DNA from: Candidatus Thiodiazotropha sp. (ex Epidulcina cf. delphinae) | GTDB taxonomy: Bacteria > Pseudomonadota > Gammaproteobacteria > Chromatiales > Chromatiaceae | NCBI GenBank assembly: GCA_025656505.1 | Contig: JAHXHR010000011.1 | Span: 1 to 47,243 of the forward strand | Direction of reading: 5' to 3' | Length of the DNA stretch: 47,243 nucleotides | In this document: in pieces, positions 2,294 through 22,946 of the stretch | Layout: each line of letters starts with the position of its first letter | Numbering within the stretch: position 1 is the stretch's first letter | Notes under the pieces: model-generated | Told to the model about the DNA's origin: nothing | Database searches by the model: none | The model's input: only the letters and a program-made list of their open reading frames with translations | Translations under genes and position numbers: made by a program

Positions 2294-5200
2294 ATGGCGC
2301 GCAGCGTCGGTAATAAAAGGTCTTTAGAAATGGCGAAAGTAAAGATAGGCATTCTCCATTCGTTGCACGGCACCATGGCGGTGAGTGAATCGGCCCTGGT
2401 CGATGCCGCCGTAATGGCCGTCGAGGAGATCAATCAGCAGGGCGGCGTGCTCGGACAGCGGGTCGAACCGGTCATCGAAGACGGGGCGTCCGACCCCCAG
2501 GCGTTCGAACAGCAGGCGCGAAAACTCCTCGTCGAGGACAGGGTCACTACGCTTTTCGGTTGTTGGACCTCTGCCTCGCGCAAGGCGGTCAAGCCGGTGG
2601 TGGAGAGCGCCGGTTCACTGCTCTGGTACCCGGTGCAATACGAGGGGCTGGAGGAGAGTCCGCACATCGTCTATACGGGAAGCTGCCTGAACCAGCAGAT
2701 CGAGCCGGCGGTGAACTGGACCCTGCAGCAGGGTCGGCGTAGCTGCCTGCTGATCGGTTCGGACTACGTCTTTCCCCGTACCGCCAACCCCTTGATCGCC
2801 AGCATGGTGGAACATAGCGGCGGCACAGTGCTCGCCGACCGTTACCTACCCCTCGGGTGGCAGGATTTCTCGCCCATCGTGGAGGACGTCCGCAGGCTAC
2901 GCCCCGAGGTGATTTTCAACACCCTCAACGGGGACAGCAATTACGCCTTTTTCCGGCAACTCCACGGGGCGGGCCTGCGGGCCGACAAGCTGCCGGTCAT
3001 GTCTTTCAGCATCGCCGAGGGTGAACAGCAGGTCATCGCGGTGGAGGGGGAGGGGCATTTTGCCTGCTGGAGCTATTTCCAGACCCTGGACACCGAGCAG
3101 AACCGGGCTTTCATACAACGTTATCGGTTTCGCTACGGCAGTGACCGGCGCTGCTCGGATCCGATCGTAACCGCATACAGCCAAGTCTGGTTGTGGCGCA
3201 ATGCGGTGGAGGCGGCCGGCTCCCTTGATCCGGATACGGTGCGCCATGGCTTGGCGGGAAAGCGCTACGTGGGTCCGGCCGGTGAGATGCGGATTCGATC
3301 GAACCACCATGTGGACAAGCCTGTGCTGATCGGACGCGCCCGCAGGGACGGCCTATTCGACCTGGTTTGGCACAGCGAAGCGCCCATCGAACCCAAGCCC
3401 TGGCTCGGTGTCGAGGATCTTTCCATGGCGGCGGTGCCGTTGATCAAGGAGTCCCTTCGACAGTTTCCCCAGTCGGTCCATTACGCGAACATACTCGAGG
3501 CCGAGATCGGTCGTCGCAAACAGGTTGAAGAACTGCTCCGGGAGAGTGAGAAACGTTTTCGCGCCCTGGTATCCGCCGCACCTATGGGCATCTATCTCAC
3601 CGATCCAAAGGGAAAGTGTACCTACGTCAACACCCGCTGGTGCGAAATGGCCGGGATGACACCGGGCGAGGCCCATGGTGACGGGTGGCTGGAAGCGATT
3701 CATCCGGATGACCGGCGATACGTATCAGAGAACTGGAAGCGGGTGGAGAAATCGGGGGGTCACTGGACCCTGGAATACCGTTTTCGGAATAAGCAGAACC
3801 GGACCATCTGGATCGCGGGTGTAGCGACCACCCTGTGGAACGAGGCGGGAAATATCACTGGATTTATCGGCTGCAATACGGATATTTCCGAGCGCAAGCA
3901 AGCCGAAGAGGAGTTGGCACAGTACCGCGAGCACCTTGAGGAACTCGTAAAGGAACGAACGTTGGAATTGGCCGAGGCAAAAGAGACCGCTGAAGCAGCG
4001 AACCACGCCAAGAGCATCTTCCTGGCCAACATATCCCACGAGCTGCGCACTCCGCTCAATGCCATCCTCGGCTTCTCCGAGATGCTGGTGCGTGCCCCCG
4101 ATACCACTTCATCCCAACAGGAGAAGATCTCCATCATCAACCGTAGCGGCGCACACCTGCTCGGCATGATCAACGACGTGCTGGACCTCTCCAAGATCGA
4201 GGCGGGCCGGATGGAGCTGGAACCGGTGGCCTTCGACCTGCCGGGGATGCTGGAAGATATCGGTCGGATGTTCGAGGTGCGCGCCAAGGACGCCGGGCTG
4301 CGCTTCGATTTGCAGTTTGACCCGACGCTGGCCCGGTTCCTCAAGGCCGACGCCGGCAAGCTGCACCAGATCCTGATCAACTTGCTGGGTAACGCGGCGA
4401 AGTTCACTCGCAAGGGCGGCTTCTCGCTGCACGCCCGGACCCTGCCCGTTGACAATGATCTCACCATGGTCACCCTGCGGATCGAGGTACAAGACAGCGG
4501 ACCGGGTATCACACCGGAGCAGCAGGAACGCATCTTCGAACCTTTCGTTCAGACACAGGCGGCCTACGCCGGCCCCAAGGGCACCGGGCTGGGCCTGAAC
4601 ATCACCCGGTCGTTCGTTAATCTGATGAGGGGCGATATCAGCGTAGAGAGCTCGCCTGGTAAAGGCTCTCTGTTCCGCGTCGATCTACCGGTAACCTTGG
4701 CCGAGGAAACGGAGGCTCGTGGCGTCGAGGCCGTCACGCCTGAGGTGATAGGGCTTGAATCCGTTCAACCCGAGTGGCGCATCCTGGTGGTGGAGGACAA
4801 TGCAGAGAATCGGTTGCTGTTGAGCAGTCTGCTGGCGCAGGCGGGCTTCGAAATACGTGGGGCGGAGAATGGCGAGGAGGCCGTCACCCTGTTTCAGGAG
4901 TGGCGGCCTCACTTCATCTGGATGGACATGCGCATGCCGGTGATGGACGGCTACCAGGCCACCTCAAAGATCCGTTCCCTGCCCGGTGGCGATACGGTGA
5001 AGATTGTGGCCATTACCGCCAGCGCCTACAAGGAGCAGCGCAAGAACATCCTTGACGCGGGTTGTGACGAAGTGGTGCATAAACCCTTCCTGACCCAGGA
5101 GATCTTCGATGCCCTGGCCAAGCAACTGGGAGTACGCTACCGCTACGAAGAATCTGCCGTGGAGGCGACAACCGAGTGGGTCGAGATAAGCACCGAGGCC

Positions 5201-15725: not shown

Positions 15726-17706
15726 ACGCATAGCGACACCCCACCTGCCGTTGCCACTCAGCCTCGTCACGGGATTGACCCTATTGCCCCACGGCATGAA
15801 TCTGGCGATGCCTGTCAATCTCTATCTGGTCGCCTTGCTCGGCTGGCGAATCGCCAGTCTACGCTTGCCCCGCCTGCAACCCGGCCGTTGGCTGCTCCTG
15901 TCGGCCACACTGAGCGGCGTTTTCCTGGTCTACACCCAATACCACACGCTGATCGGACGGGACGCCGGCGCCGCCCTGCTTGCCGTGATGCTCATACTCA
16001 AGGTCATGGAAGCGGGTAAACGCCGCGATATCTATGTTTCGGTGTTTATCTCCTATTTTGTCGTCATCACCCATTTTTTATTTGATCAGTCGCTGTTGCT
16101 GTCACTCTATCTATTGCTGGTCATGGTCTGCCAGACGGCGCTATTACTCGAGATAAACCGTGTCAAACCCTCCCCAAATCTCTATCAGCCCTTGATTAAG
16201 ACTTTGCTGATCACCCTCCAGTCCGTACCCATCGCCCTTATCCTGTTTGTTGTTTTTCCACGCATCACGCACCCTTTGTGGAATCTCGGCAGCGGGTCTA
16301 GCGCCATGACCGGTCTCAGCGACCGAGTCACCCCCGGCGCCATCAGTCAATTGATCGAATCGGCGGAAGTCGCCTTCCGCGCCGAATTCAAACAATCGCC
16401 GCCTGCCGCGGAGCAACGCTACTGGCGAGGTTTGGTGCTTTGGGATACGGATGGTTACAGCTGGTATACAGACCCTGAACGACCGCTGGCGGACACCTCA
16501 CCCAAGATCACCCATCTCGGTGAATCACTTGCCTACGACATCTTTCTCGAGCCGCATAACAGGCCCTGGCTGTACAGTCTCGATCTTCCGCTCAAGGCGC
16601 CGAACCAGGCCAGGCTTAGCGGGGATTTTCAGCTATTGATGGAAAAACCGCTAACCCGGCCGCTGCGTTATGCCGGGCTTTCAACCACCGACTACCGCAC
16701 ACCGAAACTCTCGCCGGACATGCGCCAACGTGCATTGCAGCTCAGCGGCAACCTGACCCAGCGACAACGCGACCTTGTCGCCCGTTGGCGGGCAAGTGCG
16801 ATGAATGACTCACGGCTGGTTGAAAAAGCCCTCGACTATTTTAATGCCAATCCCTTCGTCTACACCCTCACACCACCGATCTATAACGATAATCCCATCG
16901 ATGAATTCCTGTTTGAAGGTCGAGAAGGCTTTTGCGAACACTATGCCACCGGTTTCACTCAGTTGATGCGTCTGGCCGGGATCCCCGCTCGCTTGGTGCT
17001 GGGCTATCAGGGCGGAGAATACAATCAACTCGGCGACTATTTCATCATCCGCCAATACGACGCCCATGCCTGGTCAGAGGTCTGGCTGGCAGAACGGGGA
17101 TGGGTGAGAATAGACCCCACCGCGGCAGTGGCCCCGGAACGGGTACGTTACTCCATCAGATCAGACTTAGGAGAAGAGGGATCGCCGGCGCTGTTCAGGA
17201 TCGACCATGGCGGAGTCGTCGGCTCACTGTTCCACCAATTCGCCCTTGCCTTTGACAGCGCCAATGTCCAATGGCGACGTTGGGTCATCGGTTACAGCCG
17301 GGAACACCAATTCAGCCTGATGCGCGGTCTCGGGTTTGATTTTCTATCTCCAGCCCAATGGGGCCTGATCACGATCGGCATGATAGCCACCAGCCTGTTG
17401 GTTGTCGGGCTACGCATCACCTGGCAGGGAAAGCGGCGTGAAGCGCCTATCCAGGCGGTCTATCGACGCTTTTGCCGGCGGCTGTCGCGCCTGGGCATTG
17501 ACCGGCTCCCCCATGAGGGGCCCATGGACTTCGCCACAAGGGCATCCCGACGCCGCCCCGATCTGGCGACGCAGATCAAGCGAATAACCGGTCTCTACAT
17601 TCGACTGCGCTATGGCCCTCACAGCAGGGAGGCTGACCGACGATCATTTTCAAGCCAGGTGCGCCTGTTCCGTCCCCCGCGTCGTTATCGAAAACGTAAC
17701 GATTAA
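15688..17706 (+). CDS. TgpA-like membrane transglutaminase (DUF3488 + transglutaminase core)
   Basis: Multiple N-terminal TMs; REGFCEHYATGFTQLMRLAGIPARLVLGYQGGE...DAHAWSEVW...GWVRIDPT catalytic Cys/His/Asp. Confidence 0.94.
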   Translation: MPGSEPIMKQSVERIATPHLPLPLSLVTGLTLLPHGMNLAMPVNLYLVALLGWRIASLRLPRLQPGRWLLLSATLSGVFLVYTQYHTLIGRDAGAALLAVMLILKVMEAGKRRDIYVSVFISYFVVITHFLFDQSLLLSLYLLLVMVCQTALLLEINRVKPSPNLYQPLIKTLLITLQSVPIALILFVVFPRITHPLWNLGSGSSAMTGLSDRVTPGAISQLIESAEVAFRAEFKQSPPAAEQRYWRGLVLWDTDGYSWYTDPERPLADTSPKITHLGESLAYDIFLEPHNRPWLYSLDLPLKAPNQARLSGDFQLLMEKPLTRPLRYAGLSTTDYRTPKLSPDMRQRALQLSGNLTQRQRDLVARWRASAMNDSRLVEKALDYFNANPFVYTLTPPIYNDNPIDEFLFEGREGFCEHYATGFTQLMRLAGIPARLVLGYQGGEYNQLGDYFIIRQYDAHAWSEVWLAERGWVRIDPTAAVAPERVRYSIRSDLGEEGSPALFRIDHGGVVGSLFHQFALAFDSANVQWRRWVIGYSREHQFSLMRGLGFDFLSPAQWGLITIGMIATSLLVVGLRITWQGKRREAPIQAVYRRFCRRLSRLGIDRLPHEGPMDFATRASRRRPDLATQIKRITGLYIRLRYGPHSREADRRSFSSQVRLFRPPRRYRKRND

Positions 17707-17939
17707 TCTTGCAGAACCGCGTAAAGCTTATCTTTCAGCAGCAGACGCCGTTTCTTCATCTCCTCGATATGAAAATCCGATACCGGGGTGCTCAACGCCT
17801 CGAGATTCCGAATATGCACATCCAACCAGTCATATTCATCCATCAGATGATGAAACACCTCGTTGCTCTCACGCAGATCGGCAATCTTCTGCACATATTC
17901 CGGAAATTCGTTTAAAAGATCATGAGGTTCACCCAGCAT
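17703..17939 (-). CDS. YdcH/DUF465-family small protein
   Basis: LGEPHDLLNEFPEYVQKI...DVHIRNLE...EEMKKRRLLLKDKLYAVLQ. Confidence 0.85.
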   Translation of the reverse strand: MLGEPHDLLNEFPEYVQKIADLRESNEVFHHLMDEYDWLDVHIRNLEALSTPVSDFHIEEMKKRRLLLKDKLYAVLQD

Positions 17940-18254
17940 TATTTTTTCTCCTCAAACATTCACCTATTCCAGCACGGTTAGCCGGCTCTTTGGTACGGCT
18001 GTAACGTGTACGATCACAAAATTGTCTAGTGTAGTGTCCTCGCATCGTTTAACCCGACGCGCACTAGGAAGCATTATCAAAAAGAAGTTTCTCTATATCT
18101 ATACAGAAGTTATATATAAATACTAACTTATTGAAAACGCATAATTATTCAATATCTCGACTGCTGACACGGGAACAATATTGGGAGTTAAGCACCAACA
18201 AAATGTAAACCAATGCAATAAAGCATCGCACTTTAATTATACTTCCTAATCAAG

Positions 18255-18866
18255 TTAGGATTTTATCTTTTCAGGCAGCCAAAACTTCCTATCAGCCATT
18301 TTACTATCTTTAGACAAATTGGCGAAATGCGCTCCTATTTTGTGTGCCATGTCACCATCATATGCTTCACCACCTATGCATTGAGAAAAGACAATCTGGG
18401 CCACGCTTGTACCAGGATACAGAGCGAGTGGTACCTCGCCAAGATTCAATAATTCTAGTGTGATCGTCCCACAAAAGCCCGGATGAACAGCCGTTGCTGT
18501 GGCAATAACAAGACCTGCACGGCCCCATTGTGATCTTGAGGTAACGGATGCTGCAACATCGACAGGAAGACGAAAATACTCCAATGTTCCGGCAAGGACA
18601 AGTTCTTGCGGATGTAAGTAGAAGCACTCCTTAAAATTGACGAAATGCGTTGTTTGGTGGCGATGTTCCCGTATATCTTGTAACGCAGGATCAAGTTGCG
18701 CAAGATTCCCGCGACGCGTCACAATAAAATCGTTGCCTAATCGGATATCGATTGATGCCTCATTGATTTGCAAGTCGGGATTCAGAAGTGGCGTAATGAT
18801 AAGGCGTTCCTCTACCTTCTCACGGTAGAGGAGCTTTAGTAGCTCATTGTGACCAATGACACTCAT
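18255..18866 (-). CDS. dCTP deaminase/dUTPase-fold protein (divergent Dcd family)
   Basis: EASIDIRLGNDFIV, VTSRSQWGRAGLVIATATAVHPGFCGTITLELLNLGEVPLALYPGTSVAQIVF; conserved TLEL glutamate retained; canonical C-terminal KYxxQ-type tail not evident. Confidence 0.88.
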   Translation of the reverse strand: MSVIGHNELLKLLYREKVEERLIITPLLNPDLQINEASIDIRLGNDFIVTRRGNLAQLDPALQDIREHRHQTTHFVNFKECFYLHPQELVLAGTLEYFRLPVDVAASVTSRSQWGRAGLVIATATAVHPGFCGTITLELLNLGEVPLALYPGTSVAQIVFSQCIGGEAYDGDMAHKIGAHFANLSKDSKMADRKFWLPEKIKS

Positions 18867-20290
18867 GCACTGTCACCAGCCTTTGGTTCTTGAAGTAAAT
18901 CGCTTGTATATTTATTTTGAAGAATCACATATTCGATTGCAGTTAGTGCTTTTTTATACAAGCGATTAACTTCATCGTTCGATAGTACTTCACCCGTGTC
19001 AGGATTCACACCCCGCAATTTAAACATCCACGCAACCAACAGAGAGGCACGATAGTCAACTGTTTGAGGATTTTGTGGATCTCCAACCTCATTCGGTGGC
19101 ACACCTAACTCTAGTCTTCTCATCAATCCTGGTAGTTGAGAGAATATCATTTCAGACTGAAAGATAACGGCGCTTACACTGCTCTTCGCATATTCAATCG
19201 CATTCTCTAGACTCAGATTCATCCAATCATAAGCTATCTTCAACTGCGGATCTGAATTTATTGCAGTTTGATCATTTTTAATATCCACTAGTTTTCTCGA
19301 TTCTTCTAAGAACTCGTTTACAATTGCCACATATAATGAAATATCTTGTTCACCCGCAATTTGTGAGAACTTCATTGGAATATCGAGTTCATCCATCAGA
19401 TGCAACATGAGCCGAAGACGCATCCGCGGAGGTGGGTACCATGTATCATTCCTCGGTTTTGCATCCAAGTTACCGTTCCAAAACATAGCATGGCATGCAA
19501 AGAAAGCACTTGGACCGAATATGAGAATACCAACAACATCGGAAATCAGTTCCTCCAATGCACGTTTCCTGACTTGAAGGATGATATTAAATACCTGTGT
19601 CGTAAGTGCCAACTTCTGGGCGTCGTCTGCATTTGATCCAGAGAGCGTTTGACTTACAAGTTCTGCTACTTGCTTTTGTATTACCGCATGAGTCGCCTTA
19701 TGCGCTGTATCATTGCCTTCTTTCTTGAGATATTCATCAGCAATTGGATGGCCGAGCTCATGCCCAAAAATTGCGTGTGCTAGCATATTGTCACGTTCGA
19801 TCCTTGGAAACGAAATGAGCTTGATAGGGGAGGTAATATACTCCTGGAAGCCCGCCTGCTGTGAATGTGGGATAAAATCATCAACGAGCTTCTTGAGAAG
19901 CTGCCCCAAGTCGAAGATTGTGTAGTTGTACTGTGCTAGGGGCCGTGCAATAACTCGAGAATCCGGGGTCATCTGGTCGATTAGATCCTTCAGTAACTGG
20001 ACCAAACCACGCGGTGTTTGCTCTGTGTGGGCATTATCGAGCCACTCCAGAAAGATCCCAAGCTCGCGTATTAGCGAGTTCAACATTTTCAGTTTGTCTT
20101 CGGAGCCCGCTTTGCCGATTACTTCGTCAAGGCGAGCTAAAAAATCTTGCAGAAAGCAAATAATCTGGTTTGGGGTCGTTGTTGGATAGTCTGATACAGA
20201 AAGTTCGTCAATACGCTGCAATAAACCAGCTCGGAGTAAATGTGTATTCTGCCTATAATATTCTAGAAACGTAAACTCAAGTTTAGGCAT
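18863..20290 (-). CDS. Uncharacterised 475-aa protein with HELGH zinc-metalloprotease-like motif
   Basis: LAHAIFGHELGHPIADEYL followed about 70 residues later by ALEELISDVVGILIFGP (candidate Glu ligand, gluzincin-like); ATGA overlap with the Dcd-like gene. Confidence 0.75.
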   Translation of the reverse strand: MPKLEFTFLEYYRQNTHLLRAGLLQRIDELSVSDYPTTTPNQIICFLQDFLARLDEVIGKAGSEDKLKMLNSLIRELGIFLEWLDNAHTEQTPRGLVQLLKDLIDQMTPDSRVIARPLAQYNYTIFDLGQLLKKLVDDFIPHSQQAGFQEYITSPIKLISFPRIERDNMLAHAIFGHELGHPIADEYLKKEGNDTAHKATHAVIQKQVAELVSQTLSGSNADDAQKLALTTQVFNIILQVRKRALEELISDVVGILIFGPSAFFACHAMFWNGNLDAKPRNDTWYPPPRMRLRLMLHLMDELDIPMKFSQIAGEQDISLYVAIVNEFLEESRKLVDIKNDQTAINSDPQLKIAYDWMNLSLENAIEYAKSSVSAVIFQSEMIFSQLPGLMRRLELGVPPNEVGDPQNPQTVDYRASLLVAWMFKLRGVNPDTGEVLSNDEVNRLYKKALTAIEYVILQNKYTSDLLQEPKAGDSA

Positions 20291-20774
20291 ACGCTAACAA
20301 AGATTCATCTAAGCTTGAATCGCTGCCCGTGCGCTTCTGATCCGCCTCAATTAAACTGACAAGAAATAAGTGCAGCTGATGAAAAAAGTCTTTTGCTATA
20401 ATCAAATCGTTGCTGGCTTTGACCTCTGCAGAACTATTCAGCGCCACTTCTATTGCATCAGCCATTTTTTTGAATACTGCCTCCACTTCTGCAGACTGAA
20501 TTTCATCCTGCATCAGTTTTAACGGTTCAACGGAGTATGCGAGTTTTCGAACCGTATCCACAGCGCTGACATTTGAACTGACACCGGAATTTACTAGTTG
20601 AGCACCACTTGAAACATCTTTAAGAAAGCTCGCTGCACGTCGCAGCGTATACTTTTCATCCTCATCAATAAGCTGCCCAGTAAGCAACCGATTTAGGATC
20701 TCGCTACTTGTTACTGCAAGAAAGCCTAGACCGAGGTACTCGGCTTGACGAAATTCATTACCTGGTGTACTCAT
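20283..20774 (-). CDS. Uncharacterised 163-aa, apparently helical protein
   Basis: Strong RBS-like AGAGGAAG upstream of the ATG; 8-bp overlap with the 475-aa gene. Confidence 0.7.
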   Translation of the reverse strand: MSTPGNEFRQAEYLGLGFLAVTSSEILNRLLTGQLIDEDEKYTLRRAASFLKDVSSGAQLVNSGVSSNVSAVDTVRKLAYSVEPLKLMQDEIQSAEVEAVFKKMADAIEVALNSSAEVKASNDLIIAKDFFHQLHLFLVSLIEADQKRTGSDSSLDESLLAYA

Positions 20775-20825
20775 AGCATGCTTCCTCTATGTAACAGCCG
20801 ATGTTTAAAAATCATATATATTTGC

Positions 20826-21284
20826 TCAAGCAGATCGTCTTTTATATCGAACTGGGACTGGGATCTTTTCTAACTCCCTAACAACAGCTTGAATCTCTTC
20901 TCCCACTCCAAACGAGAAAGCAAACTGCCCGTATTCATCAAGACTTTCTAGCACCCCAATATCCGGAACATATCTAAATACAACCTTACCGTCTGTAATA
21001 AGTCTCTCCGACGCTAGAGGAGCTTCCAGTTTTGGCAATCGTCTCCGTATTGAGAGTAAACATTCACGAAGCGAGGAAACCTTTAACCCTTTTTCTGTCA
21101 GCTGTAGCGCTACTCGTATCTCCACGAGATCACGAAATGTAAACAACCTGGGTGTTCCTCGTCGTACTTTCGATCGCCCACTTGCCTGAATAATCTCTTG
21201 TCGCAACCAGTAGTCTAGTCGGCGATAAGTTATCCCCGTACACGAAATTACCTCTTGGGCAGTGAAGTAGCGATTAATTCCCAT
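20826..21284 (-). CDS. MerR-like HTH regulator (ORF open to 21338; ATG 21284 preferred)
   Basis: NRYFTAQEVISCTGITYRRLDYWLRQEII...RLFTFRDLVEIRVALQLTEKGLKVSSLRECL: MerR-type winged helix pattern. Confidence 0.8.
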   Translation of the reverse strand: MGINRYFTAQEVISCTGITYRRLDYWLRQEIIQASGRSKVRRGTPRLFTFRDLVEIRVALQLTEKGLKVSSLRECLLSIRRRLPKLEAPLASERLITDGKVVFRYVPDIGVLESLDEYGQFAFSFGVGEEIQAVVRELEKIPVPVRYKRRSA

Positions 21285-21309
21285 TAAATACCTAATTTTC
21301 AAGTAAGTA

Positions 21310-21335
21310 TAGCTGAATAAATACATAGCTGTATT
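21310..21335. promoter_or_regulatory. Tandem 10-bp repeat upstream of the MerR-like gene; candidate operator
   Basis: ATAGCTGAAT (21310-21319) and ATAGCTGTAT (21326-21335), 16-bp period, just upstream of the inferred start at 21284. Confidence 0.4.
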
Positions 21336-21599
21336 CATTCTAAGCTAATTATCTATTTTTCCTAGTTTTTTACAAAACATCCCTCAGAAAATTGTGGGTA
21401 AAAGCACTATGGGGCTACAAATACTTGACTCTGTTCTTTGAAATCAACGCCCATTGCTGGGATTCTTCCACTAATTTGGAAAGGAGCGATCGTAACGAAC
21501 TGAAGAAAAAAAGACACTGTCTGGAGCTGAACAAAACATGCTGGTTGTTGCCCAGCCGGCCGGAGAAAAGGAAGAATTTGGATGTATATGGAAGTAAAG

Positions 21600-22946
21600 T
21601 TATTTTCCAATACAGAAGCTGCTGAATATTCGTCCCAGGAGATCATCAGCGCTAAATTCACCGGTTATCTCCGACAATGCCTGCTGCGCCAAGCGCAGAT
21701 CCTCCGCCAGCAGTTCGCCTGCCTGATCCCGTTGCAGACTCAAGACCCCCTGCCGCAGATACCGTATCGCCCTTTCCAGGGCATCGAGGTGCCGGCGACG
21801 GGCGATAAATTCTCCTTCACTCTGATCCACGTAACCGGCACAGATCTTGAGATGTTCTCTCAGCAGGTCAATGCCCAAACCCTGTTTGGCGGAGAGGGCG
21901 ATTTCGACACCGGATTCGTCCTCACTAACGGCTGGCGGTCTGTTTGCGATATCAATTTTATTGCGCACCAGTGTAACGGGAACCCCAGCGGGGAGCTGAG
22001 TGCGATCGATGGCCAGATGCCGCGGATCAATCTGGTCATCAAACACCCACAGAACCCGATCAGCCTGTTCGATCTGTCGCCTCGCACGGCGTATTCCCTC
22101 CTCCTCCACCGGGTTTCGGCTCTCGCGCAGGCCCGCTGTATCGATGATGTGCAAGGGCAGACCATCAATCGAAATCCGCTCCCGCAGCAGATCTCTGGTA
22201 GTGCCGGGGATCTCGGTTACGATAGCCGCTTCGACACCGGCCAGGGCATTCAGCAGACTCGACTTGCCCGCATTGGGTCGTCCGGCGATGACCAGGGTTA
22301 GACCGTCTCTAAGCAGTCTGCCGGTCTCGGCGCTTTTCTCGGTTCGCTGCATATCGTCAAGCACAGTATGTAAGCGCTCACTTACTTTCCCGTCACTGAG
22401 ATAATCGATCTCTTCCTCAGGAAAATCGATGGCTGACTCCACATACAGGCGCAATTCGATCAAGCTCTCGACCAAGCGGTGAATATGCCTGGAAAAGACC
22501 CCTTGCAGGGTGCGACCGGCAAGGCGGACCGCCGCACGACTGCCGGCATCGATCAAGTCAGCTATCGCTTCAGCCTGAACCAGGTCCAGTTTGTCGTTCA
22601 GAAAGGCCCTTTCGCTGAACTCGCCGGACCTGGCCGGTCTGGCCCCCAATTGCAAGGTGCGTTGCAGCAGCAGATCCATCACCACCGGACCGCCGTGACC
22701 CTGTAGCTCCAATACATCCTCGCCGGTGAACGAGTGGGGAGCCGGAAAAAAGAGTGCGATGCCGCTATCGATGACATCCCCATGCGCGTCGAGAAACCGT
22801 TTCAGACAAGCCTGCCTGGGAGGAGGGGGTGCGCCGATGAGAGCCTCGGCAATGGTATCGCAGTCCGGACCGCTGATGCGCACTATACCCACCCCGCCAC
22901 GTCCGGGCGGGGTGGCGACAGCAGCGATGGTGTCACGCGACTGCAC
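21600..22946 (-). CDS. mnmE: tRNA modification GTPase MnmE (likely GTG start at 22946)
   Basis: [52 protein letters not shown]-terminal [15 protein letters not shown]. Confidence 0.97.

Follow-up and report, generated by a model that had tools for sequence, protein, structure and literature searches.

A short insertion behind mnmE in a Candidatus Thiodiazotropha genome carries a conserved metallopeptidase and Dcd-like gene set, probably an undescribed defence-type module

Depletion of dCTP is an established anti-phage mechanism in the AvcID system (PMC10511110), and a rare case of a pPIWI-RE protein fused to a zincin-like metallopeptidase was reported in 2013 (PMC3702460). The locus analysed here places a Dcd-like protein and a putative metallopeptidase in one gene set. 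It is a minus-strand operon of four open reading frames in the order MerR-A-B-D at positions 18255-21338 of the window, that is, of the whole 47,243-nucleotide stretch of Candidatus Thiodiazotropha sp. (ex Epidulcina cf. delphinae) DNA (contig JAHXHR010000011.1). A gap of 51 bp separates the MerR gene from A, A overlaps B by 8 bp, and B overlaps D by 4 bp (ATGA). On rechecking, the coordinates and both overlaps proved exact, so that the four reading frames and two coupled junctions of the first-pass annotation stand. Its description of the operon as AT-rich relative to the flanks also holds, with 42.6% GC in the island against 57.3% in tgpA and 58.6% in mnmE; these neighbours had been named correctly, and a DUF465 gene (17703-17939) additionally separates the island from tgpA. 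The 2023 release of PADLOC, which does not cover later systems, yielded no family for MerR, A, B or D. No description of the gene set was found in the open-licence literature; subscription papers and preprints lay outside this scope, and a recent description is possible. Within these two sources the earlier statement that no named system has this gene set is thus upheld, and the module is, on sequence evidence, probably an undescribed defence-type system.

The relatives of the module were reached through D. Used singly as queries, B and A retrieved no relatives from 330 genomes or from plasmid, phage and viral-contig sequences, and the B family was accessible only via D, whose plasmid loci showed the same gene order. 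Searching with D led to A-B-D in Bradyrhizobium quebecense (with MerR), Rhizobium phaseoli and Shinella, as well as in phage-plasmids of E. coli and Salmonella. With the Shinella B as query, further B proteins were recovered from Agrobacterium, B. japonicum and Emticicia; HExxH is present in every B of these loci. Three candidates were rejected as module copies: a Salinibaculum plasmid locus (L006) with dcd and two upstream genes, which has neither HExxH nor homology to B, and two loci with canonical Dcd, one the E. coli chromosomal-type dcd (L008) and the other from Streptomyces (L007). In 84,980 species genomes, a DNA pattern built on the D motif typical of the module matched at least 119 stretches, and viral contigs added six. 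Among the matches listed, B lies directly upstream of D or is fused to it in 101 of 117 stretches with a real D; a further locus (L089) has B just beyond the stretch edge, and with four real-D stretches cut at the edge left out, 102 of the 113 judgeable loci among the matches listed are linked. The gene-neighbourhood survey proposed earlier thus finds conserved linkage. Nine of the eleven unlinked D loci form a single Bacillota clade, in which another protein takes the upstream place. In this clade (L028, L031, L054, L062, L080, L094 and L101) the upstream protein has 204-276 aa and no HExxH, and its C-terminal part shows a weak likeness to the one in B (hhalign 35%), which weakly suggests a degenerate B.

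Because the order A-B-D recurs in about 100 loci across bacterial phyla, and MerR-A-B-D in several, the gene set reflects more than chance. Five natural B-D fusions were found; one of them (L153:169-2712, minus strand) is an 847-aa protein with an extra C-terminal region of ~150 aa, for which Pfam gave no match, and a gene of the size of A lies upstream (2767-3225). Beyond A-B-D the neighbours vary, and no metabolic neighbour is conserved. Occurrence of the module is rare and patchy: when the B profile was used for an unbiased search, a few of 370, 395 and 385 genomes from three classes had it, about 1% or less.

Gene B (18863-20290, minus strand, 475 aa) encodes the proposed effector. Across 70 relatives with 11-62% identity to the window protein, H177, E178, H181, E247, D251, P286 and R291 are invariant. 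The first three belong to the HELGH zinc motif (residues 177-181; 19748..19762, minus strand), and E247, the predicted third zinc ligand, and D251 to the ELISD motif (19538..19552, minus strand). The M48 motifs HExxH, ExxxD and HP....R are therefore all present. M48 peptidases are retrieved by the B profile at weak E-values; in a profile comparison B and M48 align at 97.2% probability (E 3e-11), with HELGH over HEIGH, ELISD over ESEAD and HP....R in register. Given these invariant residues and the profile alignment, B is by signature a gluzincin-type (M48-like) zinc metallopeptidase, in agreement with the earlier reading of the HELGH protein as a putative metalloprotease, and it is very probably an active peptidase. 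No family in Pfam, PADLOC or NCBIfam matched the window B, Pfam M48 (PF01435) included, and the Shinella B reaches 13.3 bits against PF01435, below the curated cut-off of 20.3. The structure model of B is confident (pLDDT 94.5, pTM 0.92), and a PDB fold search with it returned no significant match.

Gene A (20283-20774, minus strand, 163 aa) likewise matched no family in Pfam, PADLOC or NCBIfam. Nearly all complete loci have a gene of 98-180 aa immediately before B, and an iterated profile gathered 25 homologues of A. Its model consists of helices only (pLDDT 82), consistent with the helical partner predicted at first, and gave no significant match in a PDB fold search. The MerR-type regulator gene (20826-21338, minus strand, 170 aa; MerR helix-turn-helix domain, PF13411 at 28.3 bits, cut-off 21.6) has homologues upstream of A-B-D in other loci (L002, L218, L100, L033/L180, L181 and L132), and MerR-A-B-D occurs in Alpha-, Beta- and Gammaproteobacteria and in a Microbacterium. 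Its inclusion in the gene set thus holds for a subset of loci only, and MerR is an optional rather than a core part of the module. One Methylotenera contig (G439:C7) carries two different A-B-D modules (L217 and L218) about 30 kb apart, one of them with MerR, and a weak N6-methylase match lies between the two.

Gene D (18255-18866, minus strand, 203 aa) encodes a Dcd-like member of the dUTPase/Dcd fold family that passes the family cut-off for dCTP deaminases (TIGR02274, 125.5 bits against 92.8; Pfam DCD, 114.7 bits). Its active-site stretch (18453..18533, minus strand) holds S112, R116, H128 and E138 where E. coli Dcd has S111, R115, D128 and E138, and position 121 is deleted. Residues were surveyed, in E. 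coli numbering, in 19 module copies gathered via plasmid homology, the B profile or fusions. All 19 linked D copies keep S111, R115 and E138 and lack position 121. Position 128 is H in the window and Q, H or, in two copies, E elsewhere, never D, with the reservation that four of the five B-D fusions came from the motif scan, so that their residue 128 was selected for; the canonical dCTP deaminase set has D or E there. The conservation of positions 128-141 in the larger motif-scan set cannot be counted as evidence because these residues were written into the scan pattern. Judged from these residues, the core for chemistry or nucleotide binding is intact in D and the pocket is altered. A quick tree of D did not recover a single origin of the module-type proteins.

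Relatives of B also occur with other partners. Divergent B relatives from Bacteroidota align with B at 99.4% probability (E 4e-21) and keep the zinc-site residues. All six of their operons (L285:959-5904, L286:1149-6000, L287:1066-6006, L288:723-5745, L289:1006-5996 and L290:4585-9457) run in the order PD-(D/E)XK nuclease, class II Argonaute, a gene of 123-149 aa and then the B relative. The nuclease is Cas4-like where scanned. Pfam gave no support to a PIWI reading of the neighbour, which PDB profiles and PADLOC then established: as a family the proteins match Argonautes of the PDB, and each of the four scanned matches PADLOC pAgo_II. Homology between the small gene of these loci and A was tested and none was detectable, so that an "A-B cassette" in Argonaute loci is a positional claim. 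The Argonaute-linked B relatives are candidate protease partners for which PADLOC and Pfam hold no model. On a Sinorhizobium terangae plasmid (L009:1-6062), a B homologue overlaps the 3' end of a gene for a 1595-aa AAA/TPR (STAND-like) ATPase; a gene for a C25-family cysteine peptidase adjoins this pair, and neither A nor D is present.

Since B relatives accompany an Argonaute or an ATPase in the absence of Dcd, B rather than D is the constant part, and it is chiefly this that leads us to assign the effector role to B and the sensor role to D. Recurring with other sensor-like partners, the peptidase is the stronger candidate for the effector and D the stronger one for the sensor; that D senses rather than executes seems to us the more probable assignment, though by no means a secure one. 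The first-pass annotation had made D the effector, depleting dCTP, and these partnerships do not bear this out. In a fuller version of that idea, D would be catalytically active and, during infection, use up dCTP or drive up dUTP by deaminating dCTP, and B would be the protease switch that frees it by removing an inhibitor, perhaps A. The score above the dCTP deaminase cut-off and the catalytic S111, R115 and E138 in 19 of 19 copies would also fit an active deaminase, and dCTP depletion is established against phage in AvcID (PMC10511110). However, B relatives with an Argonaute or ATPase and no Dcd imply that B has an output of its own, and every linked D lacks position 121 and has a residue other than D at 128; we regard this version of the idea as unlikely.

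In the window, the operon lies on an insertion (17954..21600) placed directly after the mnmE stop codon. Relative to the closest relative, whose mnmE is 94% identical, homology ends at the mnmE stop codon (window position 21601) and restarts at 17953, so that 3,647 bp in the window replace about 42 bp. Among the genus loci compared the operon is confined to the window and lacking in all 17 relatives whose mnmE locus was fetched; in all 17, mnmE is followed by the DUF465 gene without MerR and then, in loci of sufficient length, by tgpA. The other genus members examined lack B. Instead of a canonical dCTP deaminase they show short dUTPase-like matches only, and D therefore neither duplicates nor replaces a housekeeping gene there. 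Judged from the homology break, the island is a horizontally acquired insertion. The expectation of a conserved, horizontally moved, non-housekeeping gene set is borne out by the cross-phylum gene order together with this insertion. The insertion is short and has no other cargo; no integrase was found with it, and a search for an end repeat marking its far end found none. It abuts the 3' end of mnmE, the attachment site of SGI1-type islands. The last 18 bases of the gene (window 21600-21617, minus strand) fit the SGI1-type attachment sequence, of which the window has no second copy.

Elsewhere, the module is found on conjugative plasmids and phage-plasmids and is chromosomal in many genomes. 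In E. coli it occurs on plasmids in 8 of 5,426 genomes, and the carrier examined is a D6-like phage-plasmid with the module between pmgF and simB, a position taken by another small gene in phage D6. A-B-D of the D6-like E. coli phage-plasmid lies at NZ_CP122828.1, 21078-23070. In Emticicia, hsdR flanks the module on one side and hsdS/hsdM on the other. Over a distance of 20 kb from B, N6-methylase genes are in excess, with 4 strong matches against 0.48 expected (Poisson p 0.0015) and 9 matches of any strength against 0.95 expected (p about 8e-7, one methylase being counted for two B copies), although these flank statistics rest on few loci. Flanking proteins match 75 PADLOC models, whereas control regions taken from these genomes match 3, most of the 75 coming from a few proteins, namely type I S and R subunits and IetS. 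SIR2 and multiubiquitin/ThiF genes are also among the neighbours; in rhizobia, genes for multiubiquitin, ThiF/E2 and DUF6527 immediately precede A-B-D (L004:951-5645, L013:1989-6646, L190 and L192) and share its strand, an arrangement that looks like one operon. For most neighbourhoods, the stretch read contains no gene recognised as a defence gene. Neighbourhoods of defence type, with restriction systems in or near loci and the N6-methylase excess, are thus seen for a part of the loci.

A function in defence is likely for the module. Conjugative plasmid and phage-plasmid carriage, and the short insertion without other cargo, would also suit mobile-element maintenance or competition, whether toxin-antitoxin-like addiction or inter-plasmid or inter-phage exclusion, in place of host anti-phage defence. 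We regard this as improbable, since the module is chromosomal in many genomes and nested in or near restriction systems, and its three conserved genes exceed the usual addiction pair. A nucleotide-metabolism or stress operon, in which D supplies dUTP and A and B are quality-control or regulatory factors, would accord with the score of D above the curated dCTP deaminase cut-off and with the lack of a canonical enzyme in the genus members examined, but is very hard to reconcile with sporadic occurrence (~1% of genomes or less), insertion in one species of the genus only, a constant peptidase partner, phage-plasmid carriage and the absence of a conserved metabolic neighbour.

The preferred reading is thus a horizontally acquired defence-type module with B as effector and D as nucleotide sensor. 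A, B and D would form a complex that holds B inactive, and D, with its altered dNTP pocket, would respond to deoxynucleotide levels or to a nucleotide made by the phage. A pool shifted by infection would make D release B, and the freed peptidase would cut cell or phage proteins and so stop phage growth, probably by abortive infection; MerR would add optional transcriptional control. We infer, rather than read from the sequence, that the three proteins form a complex, that D is the sensor and B the effector, what part A plays and that the outcome is anti-phage, and we consider the joint mechanism about evenly poised between right and wrong. More tentatively, and with the balance slightly against it, B may found a family of defence peptidases with interchangeable sensors (Dcd-derived, guided Argonaute or large ATPase). 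In the type found in the window, an enzyme that was once a deaminase would monitor the dNTP pool and set a suicide protease loose. If this were true, phage takeover of nucleotide metabolism would itself be the alarm. The module offers a concrete case for asking whether cells sense a disturbance of the nucleotide pool and answer by proteolysis, and for one class of prokaryotic Argonautes the B family supplies a candidate effector protease. The defence catalogue used does not contain this three-gene module, which spans phyla and combines two families that have no model with a reshaped metabolic enzyme.

Compared with known systems, the module shares single parts with several. Canonical Dcd (TIGR02274) has in common with D the score above the cut-off and S111, R115 and E138, whereas D differs in the deletion of position 121, in H, Q or E at position 128, in an altered C-terminal tail and in lying beside or fused to B. 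Like D, the AvcID-type deaminases are dCTP-deaminase-annotated proteins of a mobile, probably anti-phage locus; unlike them, D has the dUTPase/Dcd fold and a peptidase partner, and it matched none of the PADLOC defence deaminase models at E-values up to 1. AvcD itself has a different fold, that of zinc-dependent cytidine deaminases, and is paired with an RNA antitoxin, and the analogy drawn from it for D at the outset is accordingly loose. B aligns with the M48 peptidases HtpX, LoiP/YggG and BepA in HExxH, ExxxD and HP....R, and is set apart from them by the missing Pfam M48 match, by long helical N- and C-terminal regions and by its operon context. Class II pAgo systems with a Cas4-like nuclease (PADLOC pAgo_II and Aga_Cas4-like_Nuc) hold distant B relatives in the operon behind a small gene, whereas the four genes of the window include neither Argonaute nor Cas4-like nuclease and have D instead. 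The pPIWI-RE-zincin fusion (PMC3702460), likened here by description only, joins a metallopeptidase to a PIWI-family defence protein; it fits the Argonaute-linked B relatives and, having no Dcd, differs from the module of the window.
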